Notes: a model not told the origin generated them from the sequence alone. A stretch of 64,000 nt of DNA from Fragilaria crotonensis (GCA_022925895.1 JAKSYS010000234.1:17839-81838), one strand, 5' to 3'; shown: positions 53,148 through 61,557, counted from the first letter of the stretch. Numbers and translations: made by a program.

Positions 53148-54831
53148 CTAATGGATTTTCAGCTTCACAATACCGCCGGCGGTCCTGGTCTGGCGCTGCT
53201 TCTTGAATGTCACCACGGATGCGAGGATGACCAAAGCCATGACAGTTGGACCCATGACTGGTCCGACGATACACTCGAACAAATAGCAAAAGAAAGAAAA
53301 CCCACACAAGCTACAAAAGAGCACAGTTCCAACTGCCACAACGCCGAAGCCATGAGTGCTGGAATGCATCCACCTGTCGGATGTTTTGTAAGCTAAGGAA
53401 AGGACGTTCCTTCCTTCCTTGTCCGCAAGCATGCCAAACCATGGTGAGATTCCAAGAGATGCAAGGCGGAGGGGACTGTGTCGAATATGACTAAACGCAT
53501 TGATTGACATGATCTTGTGTTTGCCCCACAAATACACATAATCATGTAGGTCCTCGACGAGGGAGTGAGATTGCGGTAAAGCGTAGCTTGAGGCAACAAC
53601 TCCATTGACAACAATAGTACCATCAGCGGTGAGTGGTGCATAGAATTCTTTTTTCATAACACTATCTTTCTTGATAATCTCAAGCGCGGCCTGTGTGGAA
53701 TCCGCGCCAAGAAGGACATCACCAACCTTTAAGAATTCAGACACCGCAGGAATTTCCTGTTGATCGAAGCGAAACACAAAATGACGCGACGAGATCTCGA
53801 GTGGAGCAGAGGTACCATTTGTGTGGAGACGGATGTACACAGGGGATGCATCAATCGACCAATGGTTGAAGCGTAGATAGGATGAAATTTCCCACCCATC
53901 CCAAGAACACAGTCTCCAATCTTGACATCCCTCATTCTCACTTGACCCTTCCCGTGGACCGTGACGATTGCGTCACCAGGGAAGCAGTTGGTTTGGCTGT
54001 AGGTGCTGCGGTTGGTGCTTCGGTTGGTGCGGCGGTTGGAGCGTCCGTAGGTGCAGCGGTAGGTGCTGATGTAGGTGCTGTTGTCGGTGCTGTTGTAGGT
54101 GCTGCGGTTGGTGCTGCGGTTGGTGCTGCGGTTGGTGCTGCGGTTGGTGCTGCGGTTGGTGCTGCGGTTGGTGCTGCGGTTGGTGCTGCGGTTGGTGCTG
54201 CGGTTGGTGCAGCGGTTGGTGCAGCGGTTGGTGCAGCGGTTGGTGCTACAGTAGGTGCTACAGTAGGTGCTGCGGTTGGTGCTGATGTAGGTGCTGATGT
54301 AGGTGCTGGTGTAGGTGCTGATGTAGGTGCTGATGTAGGTGCTGATGCAGGTGCTGATGTAGGTGCTGATGTAGGTGCTGATGTAGGTGGGGCGGTTCGT
54401 GGGGCGGTTGGTGGGGCGGTTGGTGCTGCGGTTGGTGGGGCGGTTGGTGGGGCGGTTGGTGGGGCGGTAGGTACTGATGTAGGTGCTGCAGTTGGTTTTA
54501 CCTTGCGCTTGTGCTTAGATTTGCGGGCAGAAGGTTTGGCGGTTGATGCAGTGGTTGGTGCGGGACTATGCGGTTTTTTCTTGCGCTTGCGCTTGGCTTT
54601 GCCACGCGCCTTCTTGAGGCCACGATGGATTACAGTGCCGGAATTCTTCCTCGAGAGCACAGAACTGGATCCCTCGATCTTGACAGCGAGGAAGCCTTCA
54701 GTTGTGCTGCCAGTTGTGGTCTCGAAGATAACGGAACTCGTGTCCTTGACAATAGAAACAGCATCTTCGACAGTGATGTCGAGGCCTTGGACAGCAACGC
54801 CAAAGATGACGATGAGAACAGTGAGCTTCAT
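53148..54831 (-). CDS. Secreted Hedgehog-type Hint (autoprocessing) protein with Ala-Pro-Thr stalk (two frame breaks)
   Basis: The signal peptide MKLTVLIVIFGVAVQG begins at 54831. It is followed by a short N-terminal domain, a basic stretch and a stalk of about 70 APT repeats. A Hint domain then begins at CFPGDAIVTVHGKGQVRMRD (about 53985) and includes IGDCVLGMGGKF, HWSIDASPVYIRLHT, SAPLEISSRHFVF, VGDVLLGAD and APLTADGTIVVNGVVASSYA. Hint domains cleave themselves from the preceding chain using the first Cys. Two hydrophobic segments follow. The Hint part is out of frame by one missing base in a C run at 53990-53991 and another near 53871-53874. Hedgehog's SCYA Cys is Ser here. Released product and partner are unknown. 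Confidence 0.82.
53990..54505 (-). repeat. 9-bp minisatellite coding for Ala-Pro-Thr
   Basis: About 55 units of GGTGCTGCGGTT-type DNA (9-bp period, + strand) code for APT repeats in the Hint protein. Several units are identical over long runs (GCTGCGGTTGGT from 54105 to 54200), which suggests recent array expansion and makes this a difficult region to assemble. Confidence 0.85.
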
Positions 54832-55302
54832 GGCAGCTGAAGCTTAGGAGAGACGAGCAACAACACCTGCACTCCAAACAACGTGTGTATTGTGAGAATC
54901 TTCACCCAACGCAGCATGAGTACTAAATTCCAAGTACGCAACGATGTCTCCTGGATCTGACATCTGCAACGCTACTCAGCCTTCTTGAACGAATAAACAC
55001 AAAAACACATTTTTCAAGGCACAATTACACAAATCTGTAACGTTCGATAACGGCAGCCCGCCACAACTTTGTCTCCCATTATTGAAAGCTGGCCTATAGC
55101 ACTCGTAAACCCATACATAGAAGCGTTAAATTTGTCGTGTGCACACAACGGAAAAGGTGCACAGCATGTGCGTATGTTATATGTATAGGTACACATACAC
55201 ATAAATGCGCAATCGTCACCTTCGTTTCTTCTCCCTCGAATACTCGCAATACTCCAAGTTCACTTGTCTGGTATGATACGAGTACCATACTATCATAGTA
55301 GT
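54832..55302. other. Spacer, promoter side of the Hint gene
   Basis: No gene seen. A palindromic GTATGTTATATGTATAGGTA-like AT/GT stretch lies near 55171-55203. Nothing else stands out. Confidence 0.4.
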
Positions 55303-55306
55303 ATAA

Positions 55307-58300
55307 CCCCAGTGCGAAAATTCCGTGCGACAAAAAAGACGACAAAATGTTGAAACCCAATAACGGAGGAACAAACCATTTGATTCTGAAAAGTGCGATC
55401 TGTAATGCTTTTAACCTTCTTCCTATATCTGTGAGGATAACTTCCTAATCATGATGCTCGCAAAGTTACAACATTGCAAACTTCATCAATTTTTTTCGGA
55501 GTTCGCACGAGTTTGTCGCATGAAAAAAGCTAGCATGCGACAAAAAAGTACGACTATTGAAAAATTAACACGAGGAGACTCGCGGTGATCACATTGACAC
55601 AATGATGTTCAGTCTTAAAACCGCCTTATTGGAGCTCTCCTTGGTCTCAGCGATCTGAAGTCTTCGTGTTACCACAGGAGTAATCCGAGATCGAACTCTG
55701 CGAGGAGCAGGTGGCTCCTCGTTTTCCTGAGAAGAATCATCTGGATTCACTGAACCTCGATTCGGAGGTGGTGGTCGGTTTTGATGCGGGATGACGTGAA
55801 CCACAGCATCCATCTCGGCTGTGCAATAGTCTACCAATGATCTGCTTGTATGAAATAACTCATGGCAGCTCCTGCCGTTGAAACGCTTGACACGACAAAG
55901 GCTGACCATGCACACAGGACACATGAACTTCGTCGTACGACCATGCCTGCAGTGCTTCGGATCGGGTTGATCATGCCTCTTTCTGCAGCACCAGACACAG
56001 CTTGTTGGTTTTGATTCCACTTTGCATAGAACATGTGGCAATGACTGGTCCAATCGTCTTTGAATCATCTCGCGACTTGTGAAGTACAGCTCGCGCTTGT
56101 TGTATGTAACAGACCTTCCGCTTGTGTTCAGAACACTTCCTTCTCCCGTCTGCTGGATGCTGATACCACCATCATCTCCTCCTTCACTGTCGCTGCTGTC
56201 ATCACCTGAAACCTCGAGTGTTAGGTCTTTAGCAAGAGAACTGCAGAACTTTGAAAAAGACCCATACAGCTTTCGGTGTGCCTGGAATGCAGCATACAAA
56301 TTGCACCCATCACTTAGCAGGAATGCAACAGAGCGACTGAGAATGTAGCTCTGATATGCATTATAAACTCGAGACATCAGAAGACGAAGCCATATGTGTG
56401 CCAATGGTGAGAGCTGTGCATGCCGAGCATGGCAGTTCTTCATGTACCGCGAACACATCAACAGGACCTTTGCTTCGATTCCACATTGCTACAATGGTCG
56501 GAATCAACATGCGTCCTGCTGGCAACGGTCTGCCCTGGTCTTCACAAGATTATAGATTGCTCTCCATAGTTCCAACGTATTTTGAACAGTGTACTCGTCA
56601 ACTGCATGCCTCAGCTTCATTCCTCCCAAACACGGTAAACGACCATGAAGTACCCAGGAAAGCTCACGATCATGTACCTCTTGCAATGCACATCGATATT
56701 GCTCAACCACCTGCTCATCAACATTCACATGAACAACACGAATTATCTTGTGCAATGATGCCACCACATAGAAAGCATGTCGCAGATTGCCACATGCAAT
56801 GCCATGCAACAATTGACACCTGTACTGGGCTCAGGAATCATTCGTTTAAAGTCGTCGTTCGTAGGAGGATCCGTCATAACAACATAAATCGTTGGACACG
56901 TGCCGTAGGTCCTGGCCAATGCGGTCTCTTTCATTACTGTTGCGGGGTGCATTTGCTCTTGATCTCCACTATGAAAGGAATACCTTCTCCTCGCCAAATA
57001 TGTTTTCGTTCTCCGCAACTGCAATCGCATCGGGCGAGAATGCTGCATAGAACATACCTTTTGCACATAACAAGCCATATTCCCTGATATGTGTCACAAC
57101 GAAATCGCTTTCCTGATCAAGAAACAGGGAAGTCTTGACAATACATTTGACTCATTGAGGGTACCTTCACGCATTGAGGTCGATGAGGCAAGGGCGACAT
57201 AAACCACTTCTCCAGAAGAAGTTCCAGTATTGGGCATTCCCGTTTGACTGATCAGATCCTCCCCATGAAAGCACTCTATCAATGAGAATTGTTTTGCTCC
57301 CTGTCACCAGCAGAGATTTCGCTCGGCAAATATCTTTAGGTGTGCAACCGACAACCCCACTAACTCATGTCTACTGTAAATCCGATCAGCCACAGCCTCA
57401 TTTGGAATGAGTTCATCGAGCATTTCAACCCAAGTATTTTACAGCTTGACAGGATATTGTGCGACAGCTCCTCCACTGGTGACACTGGCGGTGTAACGAG
57501 CCCGATGCGCATAGCGCTTCCATAGTGCAAGAGCAGTGGTTCCAGTAATTGAAACTGACGCTGGTTGAACCATTCTGGAGATCGTTGCGTATCTGTCAGC
57601 TGCTCAACATGGTCTGCTTCAAACAGTCTAATTACTTCATCATCTGTAGGTTCTGGAGCGACATCGCATCCTCGTTGTCGGGTTACAAGGGTAAACTTTC
57701 CCGGTCCGTACCTGTCATCAGTCGTTTGCATGAGAACCACCCGGCCTAAGCCGTTTCGACTGGCCAGTGCATATTGATGTGTAACTCTTGAACCATTTCT
57801 TATCGCCTTCGTAGCCCAATAATGGGCTGATGCACCTTTCTCTGCAATAAGCCGCCGGTCTGGGCCCGGATGTTGGTCGTATGTAAAAGGGAACGATCGC
57901 ATTCTCTTTGTTGTTCCCAAAAGCATAGCTCCAACCGACACACTCCACTGGTTGACTTCTCCATTCACTCCACCATATCCTCGATCCCAGAAGAAAGTGT
58001 TGCCATCGAGTCGGATTTGCGATTCGGATGATACGCCTGTCATACTCCTCTGCAATATTTTCACACAGTCCAAAGTTGACTCACCCCGAGCTGCAACATG
58101 CCCGCCAATATACAAACCAGTGACCACTGACACTGCTCCATGATGAATGACTCCTAACCCTTTGCAGGGGTTGTTGATCTGTGAGAACCCGTGATTGATG
58201 ACCCTCTTGATCGCATCCGAAGTAAGTCATCGTCCAAACCAACTTGGGTCACTCCTGCAACAAAAGCTAGCTCTGACCCAGTTGAACGAACAATTTCCAT

Positions 58301-59277
58301 TGCTGCAGCCATTTCTCTGTCATGCTGCATAGGAGGTGTCCAAGTTGATGCTGATTCCTGCCTTGAAGTGCCAGACCGTGACAAAGCCTTCAAGATCTCT
58401 CGGTATCGAATGAGGTCCATACCCTGTCCTGCAGATGGAAAATTTGCTCGCTCATCCATATCAAAGTACAACGAAGGGGAGACTCGGTAGAATGAGAGCA
58501 TCAATTCAATCCGAATGAAGGCAAGTATCTCTGAATTCGAGACGGAATCCCGAGATAAGTTCTTATTGATGAATTGCTTGATATGTCCCAGCAAATTAGC
58601 ATCCATCCACGCCTCTAAAAAACGAGCAGGTGCAACCTTCCACAGATTCCTGACTCTTCCGCCAAACATCTTGGCTTTCAGACGGCTAAGGACAATTGGT
58701 ACCTCCTGGCGGGCCACCTCCAGCAGATGTCGGTCTACTAAATCGATCTCGATAGTTGTCTCAAACTCTCTGATGAAGTTCCATTCTCCTATCGGTTCCT
58801 CATCGTCTGCATCATCCAAATCAGCATCACCAGCTGAACCAGACATCAAATACATCATATCCTCAAGATCAGAGTCACTTTCATCGCCACCATCACTGTT
58901 GTTTGACATGATTGAGGGGACCTTTCAAGAGCAAGAATTGATTTCTTGTTGATGCAATGGCGGGTGCTTGTTGTTGCTGCGCACTTCAAAGTGCACATAC
59001 ACCTCTGTATGAGGGTCTACAGATAATACCTACCGTATGTAGAACCTACAGTGTACAAAGACCTGAACTTTTAGTACGGAGACAGGGTGCACAACTGGTC
59101 TCTGGAATGCATGCAAGGGGCAACAAGCGAACTTCAATTGTAGGCATCAATGAGAATCGCTGAAAAACATTTGTCGCACGAAATTTCTCGCTAGCTTTTT
59201 CGTAGGACAAAAATTTTGGGATATCCCAAAACTCGGAAGAATTTTTGTCGCATGCCATGCGACAAAAAATACTGGGG
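55307..59277 (-). mobile_element. 3.97-kb piggyBac-like DNA transposon with ATAA target duplication
   Basis: The ends are CCCCAGT at 55307 and its inverse ACTGGGG at 59271-59277, flanked on both sides by ATAA (55303-55306 and 59278-59281). A four-base AT-only target duplication and CCC-type ends fit the piggyBac superfamily, whose usual target is TTAA. Subterminal copies of TGCGACAAAAA and its inverse occur at about 55328, 55512, 55535, 59169, 59245 and 59256. They are candidate transposase-binding sites. The single transposase gene inside is broken. Confidence 0.8.
55589..58909 (-). pseudogene. piggyBac-like transposase carrying a PD-(D/E)XK nuclease-like segment, frame-broken
   Basis: The acidic N-terminus (MSNNSDGGDESDSDLEDMMY) starts at 58909. 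Core motifs in order are VGLDDDLLRMRSRG, INNPCKGLGVIHHG, TGLYIGGHVAARGE, FFWDRGYGGVNGEV (second Asp) and GTTKRMRSFPFTYD. Then come VAMWNRSKGPVDVFSRYMKN (third Asp), IWLRLLMSRVYNAYQSYIL and a C-terminal Cys/His region (CVWCCRKRHDQ, CPVCMVSLC). This order is that of piggyBac DDE transposases. Between the second and third Asp, about 57075-56600, lies HIREYGLLCAKGMFYAAFSP and PFIVEIKSKC. That is the SPDxI plus ExK pattern of YqaJ-type exonucleases, followed by QLLHGIACGNLRHAFYVVAS. At least five frame changes and an internal TGA (about 57305) make it inactive. Confidence 0.75.
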
Positions 59278-59281
59278 ATAA

Positions 59282-60049: not shown

Positions 60050-61557
60050 CTAATGAGCTGCGACATTGGTAATACTCCTCATGGCCCCTTGATTAGTCTC
60101 CTTCAAACGGGTACCTGTGATGAAGTTCGAGACGCCCTCCAACGCCGTCGCCATCTGATCGAGCGCGTCGCAAACTTCAATCTGGTTCGAAATGACAGCA
60201 TTCTTCGAGGAGGTACCTTTCAACAACAACACCCCATCCACTTGATCAATCTCGCCGTCCAATTTCCCATCCAGTATAAGACCCACGAGAAGGGACTCGA
60301 CATCCCGCACTGAAATGTCATTCAACTCCTTCGAAATGGCTTCCAAGGAAATACGAGTGTATGGTTGAATGACGCGTCGTAGGACTTGACGGCGAATGGT
60401 CCGAAGCAGGTCTTCCACGTGTTCTCGCACAAACTCATCCTCCATAATTCGACCTTGATTCTCTCGCAATATTTTTTCAAATGCCTGAATCTCATTACTA
60501 TGAAACGCTTGTACAAGATTCGTCATGGCAACGATTTCGGGATCATCGCGATACGGCCGCGCTTCTTGAGAATCGAACGGGTTTATGGAGGAGGAATGAA
60601 GCATACTCGCCATAACCAAGTACTTGAGACATCTCAATCGACTCGGATCTCCAGCTTCATCGTACGATTTGAATGCCTGAAAGAACGTCTTGCCTGCCGC
60701 CTCGTACTCTCTGGCTGCCAGATGCATCTTGCCTCCCAGTTCTTGGATCAAGGCAAGAGTGCGAGGATGGGGAATACCACCGCGGACCGCGAGCGCCTTT
60801 TCGAATATTTTGCGCAACTCCTTGTTATCCTTCTGGCGTGAGTAGAGCTGAATCTGAAGTGCATAAATCTCCATCAAATGAGTCGATGAGCTGCTGGATT
60901 CTGAAAATTGAGTATTCTTGAGATCTTGCAATACCAATTGAAGTTTTCCCGTTTCATTCGTTTCGTACAAGAGTTGACCATACTTGAGATTCGTCTTGAA
61001 CCACAATCGATCATTTGGAAAGGGCCCTCTCTTGGGTTCAAAGAACTTGATGGTACGTTCGTAGATTTCACTGGCAAGGTTGCGTGGATCTTGAACCCTT
61101 GACGACGAGTTTCCTTGCAGAATGGATGAGATTCTGTCCAACATACCATTGATTCCCTTTTCTACAGCGTTCGACTGACGTTCCTCGAAATGCATTCCAT
61201 CAAACGTTCATAATGACGCAGAATCTCACTTGAATTTCCAGTTCGCAAATGAAGCTTGATGAGCTGTTTCATAGCTTTGAAGGACCATTGTCCATACTTC
61301 TTTCCTTGAGAATTGACTTGTTCACTCTGACTGTCGGTAGCAATGACCTTTTCGAACGCCTGAATTGCCTCGGTAACATTGGTGTCTCGTAAGCCCTTGG
61401 CATTGTAATAATCATTTTCCATTTTGATTTCGCCATCGTCTGCCTCTTCTTCCTCGTCCGTGTATTCAAACTTATCTTCCATCTCTTCATCCTGTTCATC
61501 ATCATACTCGTACTCATATTCCTCTTCGTCGTCGTCGTCGTCGTCGTCGTCAGACAT
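60050..61557 (-). CDS. CSN2: COP9 signalosome subunit 2 (one missing base)
   Basis: CSN2 is a PCI-domain subunit of the COP9 signalosome, which removes NEDD8 from cullins. The start MSDDDDDDDDEEEYEYEYDD gives the acidic N-terminus typical of CSN2. Then come MKQLIKLHLRTGNSSEILRH, NDRLWFKTNLKYGQLL, IPHPRTLALIQELGGKMHL, DPSRLRCLKYLVMASML, INPFDSQEARPYRDDPEIVA and the winged-helix end VESLLVGLILDGKLDGEIDQ. This matches CSN2 throughout. Near 61170 the frame jumps from ISRNVSR to NAVEKGINGMLD because one A of a short run (TT on the + strand) is missing. No other damage. Such a conserved core gene is unlikely to be dead, so an error in the sequence, or a second good allele, is more likely. Confidence 0.88.

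Follow-up and report, generated by a model that had tools for sequence, protein, structure and literature searches.

Can a transposase harbor a second nuclease between its own catalytic residues? This question is raised by a decayed element of the piggyBac superfamily, 3,971 bp long and encoded on the minus strand of contig C152 in the 62-Mb genome of the diatom Fragilaria crotonensis. The genome contains 19 matches to silicon transporters (best E 4e-193), which mark the host as a diatom. The element lies within a stretch of 64,000 nucleotides that was analysed as a whole and is called the window in the following. A preliminary description of the window had proposed a piggyBac-like transposase with a PD-(D/E)XK segment resembling YqaJ and lambda exonuclease between the second and the third of its catalytic aspartates (D1, D2 and D3). 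We arrive with a probability of about 0.9 at the same architecture and the same identity of the nuclease: a diatom piggyBac-superfamily transposase with a lambda-exonuclease/YqaJ-type PD-(D/E)XK nuclease, which is itself interrupted by a SAP domain, between D2 and D3. This architecture was observed within a single open frame, and the analysis further shows nuclease residues that hardly vary, selection of the purifying kind, how the insert folds, the termini and the target site duplications (TSDs).

The element in the window

The edges of the element are sharp and were taken as the points where the similarity to seven close copies ends, together with the TSD; on the coding strand it begins with 5'-CCCCAGT at 59277 and ends with ACTGGGG-3' at 55307 (Table 1). 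The span originally assigned to it, 55589-58909, covers the coding part, but the whole element extends over 55307-59277. When the flanks of the insertion are joined, they match two other sites of the genome (C173:17398 and C626:6449) across the junction with about 75% identity; both are paralogous sites at which the window insertion is missing, in other words empty sites.

The peptides on which the proposal had been built (FFWDRGYGG, YGLLCAKGMFYAAFSPDAIA with its SPD motif, FIVEIKSKC, QLLHGIACG and KGPVDVF) can all be read from the minus strand, where they are distributed among several frames. To these can be added pieces that had not been listed, namely the GLDDD of D1, RSPEWFNQRQF with the W..R pocket motif, the SAP domain, GTLNE and the zinc finger. 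The ITGT that should follow the W-x3-R motif is missing from the window copy at a frame break. The window copy is dead, as its frame is broken and the protein cannot be made from it; the significance lies with the family, the window copy itself being a fossil.

Table 1. Features of the element, in window coordinates
Feature	Position	Strand	Remarks
Whole element	55307..59277	-	ends 5'-CCCCAGT ... ACTGGGG-3'; frame-broken; defined by similarity edges and TSD
TSD, 5' side	59278..59281	.	ATAA on the plus strand, TTAT on the element strand
TSD, 3' side	55303..55306	.	4-bp duplicate, TTAT on the element strand
N-terminal frame: acidic N-terminus, DDBD-like region, D1	58157..58924	-	open frame of 256 aa
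Catalytic D1 (GLDDDLLR)	58232..58234	-	kept in 20/20 readable copies
Frame with D2 block (FFWDRGYGG), strands GRVVLMQTTD and nuclease start (RSPEWFNQRQF)	57363..58226	-	
Catalytic D2	57984..57986	-	kept in 20/21 copies
Nuclease W-x3-R in RSPEWFNQRQF	57552..57584	-	W 19/19, R 18/19; matches W24/R28 of lambda exonuclease
SAP fragment within nuclease insert	57263..57337	-	Pfam SAP in intact copy C52
GTLNE, nuclease Glu (equivalent of E85 of lambda exonuclease)	57151..57165	-	17/17 copies elsewhere
SPD, nuclease Asp	57029..57037	-	18/18 copies
E-I-K, nuclease ExK	56958..56966	-	E 16/17, K 16/17 copies elsewhere
Nuclease Gln, QLLHGIA helix	56813..56815	-	20/20 copies
Catalytic D3 (WNRSKGPVDVF)	56457..56459	-	15/18 copies; W-N to D spacing 8
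C-terminal frame after D3: linker and Cys-rich domain	55592..56488	-	
C-terminal Cys-rich zinc finger, piggyBac CRD type	55850..56000	-	zf-Tnp_2 in copy C191

Copies of the family in the genome

Does the order of motifs in such a broken copy mean anything? Searches of the diatom's own genome revealed about 25 copies of the family, and 20 copies besides the one in the window, all from this genome, were aligned. They fall into three subfamilies, between which protein identity is about 36-60%: subfamily A (the window copy, C483, C114, C616, C261, C658, C39 and C23; DNA about 98-99% identical), subfamily B (C522, C471, C65 and C51) and subfamily C (C52, C509, C191, C27, C38, C50, C110, C45 and C786). 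In two of them, C52 with 1,041 aa and C509 with 999 aa, an uninterrupted frame starts before D1 and ends past the zinc finger. All subfamilies have one single order, which runs from GLDDD (D1) and FFWDRGYGG (D2) through RTPEWF..R..ITGT, SAP, GTLNE, SPDAIA, VE[MI]KSKC and Q[LI][LI]HG to WN..KGP[IV]D (D3) and the Cys-rich finger. Upstream of the main frame subfamily C contains a short GT-AG intron, whereas subfamily A is continuous there.

From the window copy by itself, broken as it is into many frames, one might suspect that two unrelated fossils came to lie side by side through chance or through the assembly. The probability of such an artefact is practically negligible, considering that the same layout recurs in 20 further copies on other contigs, two of which hold it in one open frame, and chance juxtaposition was rejected as refuted by the intact copies C52 and C509. 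Because the 20 further copies are collinear, two of them in one uninterrupted frame, the motif order goes beyond chance. Intact homologues, on which the original proposal was to be judged, thus exist within the same genome: no break interrupts the insert in C52 or C509, and Table 1 lists how often the nuclease D, E and K are conserved. Outside this genome, a search of the non-eukaryotic collections viral_contigs and genome_contigs found no relatives.

All subfamily A copies are frame-broken, mostly by length differences of 1 bp, many of them in homopolymers and some common to several copies; recent decay, spread of already broken copies or assembly error could each account for this. One subfamily A copy (C261:37645-49721) is split where the nuclease/D3 region ends by an insertion of about 9 kb. 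For the final 150 bp of the element there are 36 matching places in the genome, of which eight are the close copies. The 28 further 3'-end loci (C537:84032, C614:101601, C295:171033 and others) match these 150 bp at about 70-89%, and most of their contigs show no match to the transposase of this family; they probably represent non-autonomous derivatives or further subfamilies.

The outer protein resembles piggyBac

Several lines of evidence assign the outer protein to piggyBac, as had been surmised. The Pfam family DDE_Tnp_1_7 (PF13843) matches the N-terminus of the window copy itself at 58364-58630 (E 3e-6, above the curated cut-off). It gives the best family match, also N-terminal, with E 2.6e-7, exceeds the cut-off in other copies as well and is found in 8 of 16 fragments, its match being confined to the first 95 profile positions with the DDE part of the profile unmatched. 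At the other end of the protein, zf-Tnp_2 (PF13842) matches the C-terminus of C191, which is the top zf-Tnp_2 match genome-wide, with 24.1 bits against a cut-off of 24.0 (E 5.5e-5), and other copies more weakly. The putative catalytic triad is kept in most readable copies (counts in Table 1), with piggyBac-like motifs and spacing. The termini of the family read CCCCAG...CTGGGG or CCCCCGAC...GTCGGGGG, both of the form 5'-CCC...GGG-3', and perfect 4-bp TSDs flank seven of the seven copies in question: TTAA twice, TTAT twice (including the window copy), TTAG, CTAG and CTAA. Compared with TTAA, these duplications are of equal length and have TA at their centre but are looser in sequence.

The piggyBac transposase of Trichoplusia ni (T. 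ni) has the triad D268/D346/D447 and an insertion domain (residues 372-433) after the fifth strand (PMC7351741). With this enzyme the diatom protein shares the N-terminal and zinc-finger Pfam families, a DDD triad as judged from motifs and spacing, the C-terminal Cys-rich domain, the CCC/GGG ends and a TTAA-like TSD of 4 bp. The spacing between D1 and D2 is 83 residues in the diatom protein and 78 in the T. ni protein, and the 8 residues from W-N to D3 equal the distance from Y439-N440 to D447. In contrast, D2 and D3 are about 506 aa apart instead of 101, since this interval holds the lambda-exonuclease-like nuclease and the SAP domain, and the TSD is relaxed to TTAA/TTAT/TTAG/CTAG/CTAA. In ordinary piggyBacs of the same genome DDE_Tnp_1_7 is matched over about 346 positions within about 390 codons, and because the profile is covered in so few codons these elements are without the insert.

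When the N-terminal/DDE alignment was compared as a profile with the PDB, no matches were obtained, and no piggyBac structure was among the structural matches of the longer of two AlphaFold2 (AF2) models, in which pLDDT over the DDE part was 20-40. As this model did not resolve the DDE part, an RNase H fold enclosing the insert is argued from motifs, spacing and the Pfam matches at both ends, and the nuclease would appear to be located in a loop past the GRVVLMHTTD strands and ahead of the D3 helix (WN..KGPID).

Could the element instead belong to Kolobok? Kolobok is likewise a TTAA-targeting DDE superfamily, and one of its members, KolobokE, has a lambda-exonuclease-like PD-D/ExK nuclease, so that TSD class and kind of nuclease are shared (PMC9587614). 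Nevertheless, we consider such a membership very improbable. Kolobok termini are 5'-RR...YY-3' and the nuclease of KolobokE lies downstream of the transposase domain; in the diatom element the termini are 5'-CC...GG-3', the nuclease lies between D2 and D3, the third catalytic residue is Asp, and each end of the protein scores above cut-off against a Pfam family of piggyBac. Kolobok membership was rejected. For KolobokE no SAP domain is mentioned, whereas in the diatom family one lies inside the nuclease.

The insert is a lambda-exonuclease-type nuclease split by a SAP domain

Of the residues that lie between D2 and D3 in the two intact copies, about 350-400 hold a PD-(D/E)XK domain that is split by a SAP domain (PF02037; in C52 E 5.2e-7 and 29.6 bits against a cut-off of 23.9); SAP was matched in 16 of 35 family fragments. 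In the C52 frame the nuclease segment takes up about aa 300-625. The insert has its motifs in the order of lambda exonuclease, that is W-x3-R-x3-IT-x-[ST], Glu, SPD, ExK and Gln; shuffling the insert 20,000 times never reproduced this ordered motif. In lambda exonuclease the 5' phosphate is held by W24 and R28, and mutation has been used to probe active-site residues that include E85, D119 and K131 (PMC7496540). For AF2 prediction the C52 insert was aligned with the unaltered frames of other copies, and a second construct was longer. The nuclease core was modelled with a pLDDT of about 70-86 in the insert construct and up to 88 in the longer one. Its top structural match is LHK-Exo (Z 10.1, rmsd 2.5 over 123 aa), followed by lambda exonuclease (Z 9.5) and later by R354, MGME1, Dna2, Cas4 and EXO5, nearly all matches being PD-(D/E)XK enzymes; among viral models the best match is a YqaJ exonuclease (E 4.9e-4). 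In these models the middle segment adopts a PD-(D/E)XK core of the lambda exonuclease type instead of the three-stranded piggyBac insertion domain, and with the motif residues and the intact frames this upholds the nuclease part of the preliminary description.

The insert is called lambda-exonuclease-like by fold and motif because the Pfam YqaJ profile (PF09588) matched no family member at E up to 1. Alignment with hhalign to a single lambda exonuclease sequence was not significant and brought the wrong stretch into register, while alignment to the host's own YqaJ gene found the right motif register with a non-significant E of 0.26; the comparison of folds was used because such single-sequence profiles are too thin. 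Identity to lambda exonuclease, LHK-Exo and YqaJ is about 10-18%, and unlike these enzymes the diatom nuclease is interrupted by SAP. Moreover, lambda exonuclease is a free, toroid-forming enzyme, whereas here the nuclease is fused inside a transposase. Apart from this family, YqaJ is matched at a single locus in the genome (L071, C120:137100-138690; E 1e-5), a separate gene with the motifs SPDAL, EVKNHC and PQLMMEM, and is possibly the host source or a cousin of the nuclease.

Is the nuclease maintained as an enzyme? About three quarters of the alignment columns of the insert are variable, yet W, R, the Glu, the D of SPD, E and K of ExK and the Gln are nearly invariant (Table 1). For the nuclease, dN is about 0.28-0.31 against a dS of about 2.7-2.9, giving where computable a dN/dS of about 0.1, comparable to the DDE part and a rough estimate only because dS is saturated between subfamilies; the low dN against dS indicates that the insert is under purifying selection. 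A different reading would be that the insert is a dead or purely structural lambda-exonuclease-like fold, an enlarged insertion domain that serves, with SAP, as DNA-binding platform for target choice or transpososome assembly. SAP as a DNA-binding domain would suit such a platform, and insertion domains of DDE transposases do occur at the corresponding position in the topology, where their ligands are hairpin and target DNA (PMC7351741). A structural role would hardly explain why D, E, K, Glu, Gln, W and R are retained by almost every readable copy when most of the insert varies, and we regard it as quite unlikely. The nuclease is predicted to be active and, because the Trp/Arg pocket is conserved, to need 5'-phosphorylated duplex ends and to degrade in 5' to 3' direction.

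A possible role in the repair of the donor site

What could such a nuclease contribute to transposition? Excision by piggyBac yields element DNA with hairpin ends; the break at the donor site has TTAA overhangs with 5' phosphates and is religated precisely. It could be imagined that the DDE core excises the element and leaves behind the 5'-phosphorylated donor break, and that the embedded nuclease, tethered in the transpososome, then resects the 5' ends of this break. Resection would divert donor repair from seamless religation to homologous copying, which would restore the donor copy, so that copy number would rise; the SAP domain might help to hold the DNA. We put forward tentatively, as the likeliest of the roles considered though at less than even odds, that the nuclease would serve in 5'-end resection at the donor break, favouring homology-directed restoration of the copy. 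It is equally conjectural, though conceivable, that a single polypeptide acts as a cut-and-resect transposase, combining DDE excision with lambda-exonuclease-like resection of the donor ends. The TSDs are uninformative on repair of the donor site.

Alternatively, the nuclease may trim or open transposon ends or hairpin intermediates and thereby shape excision or integration rather than donor repair. This we consider unlikely. In its favour are the TSDs of the family, looser than TTAA, and the passage of piggyBac through hairpin intermediates (PMC7351741). Against it, the termini are not ragged among copies, and enzymes of the lambda exonuclease type act from free duplex ends that bear a 5' phosphate, which hairpins do not offer (PMC7496540). 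Of the roles proposed in the preliminary description, which had named both, resection of ends appears better supported than processing of hairpins. It is also established that DDE transposases of the piggyBac type open their hairpins themselves.

If the nuclease does steer donor repair, the family would possess a built-in route to copy gain, and genome engineering could borrow from it a design, found in nature, that links excision to homologous repair. As transposase and nuclease are fused in one protein under purifying selection, the role of the nuclease is testable by a single point change.

Relation to other transposons with exonucleases

How novel is this arrangement? Our literature search found no piggyBac with YqaJ, no nuclease in the insertion domain and no such element from a diatom; nor did it find, among published papers, a nuclease between the catalytic residues of any DDE transposase, though an unpublished or database-only entry is conceivable. 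No other DDE transposase known to us houses a further nuclease among the residues of its catalytic triad, and a piggyBac with a nuclease between two catalytic aspartates appears to be new. The earlier statement that no element of this kind had been characterised needs to be qualified by KolobokE and by ISL2EU. ISL2EU transposons, which are Harbinger-like, are also eukaryotic DDE transposons that carry a YqaJ exonuclease, although they belong to another transposase superfamily and have the nuclease in a second, separate open reading frame (PMC4482050, PMC9179366). With ISL2EU, Kolobok and now piggyBac, lambda-exonuclease-like nucleases are found with three DDE superfamilies, two of which, Kolobok and piggyBac, target TTAA. 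This recurrence suggests that 5'-end resection has repeatedly been useful to cut-and-paste elements.

Neighbourhood of the insertion

Two further coding regions on the minus strand lie on either side of the element. At 53148-54843 a secreted PT-repeat protein (APTAAPT array) is encoded, followed past a frame change by a Hint module of the hedgehog/intein type (PF01079, E 3e-10) and a hydrophobic helix. At 60053-61207, about 0.8 kb off the 5' end of the element, lies a gene for a PCI-domain protein (Pfam E 3e-21) of the COP9 signalosome/proteasome-lid type.
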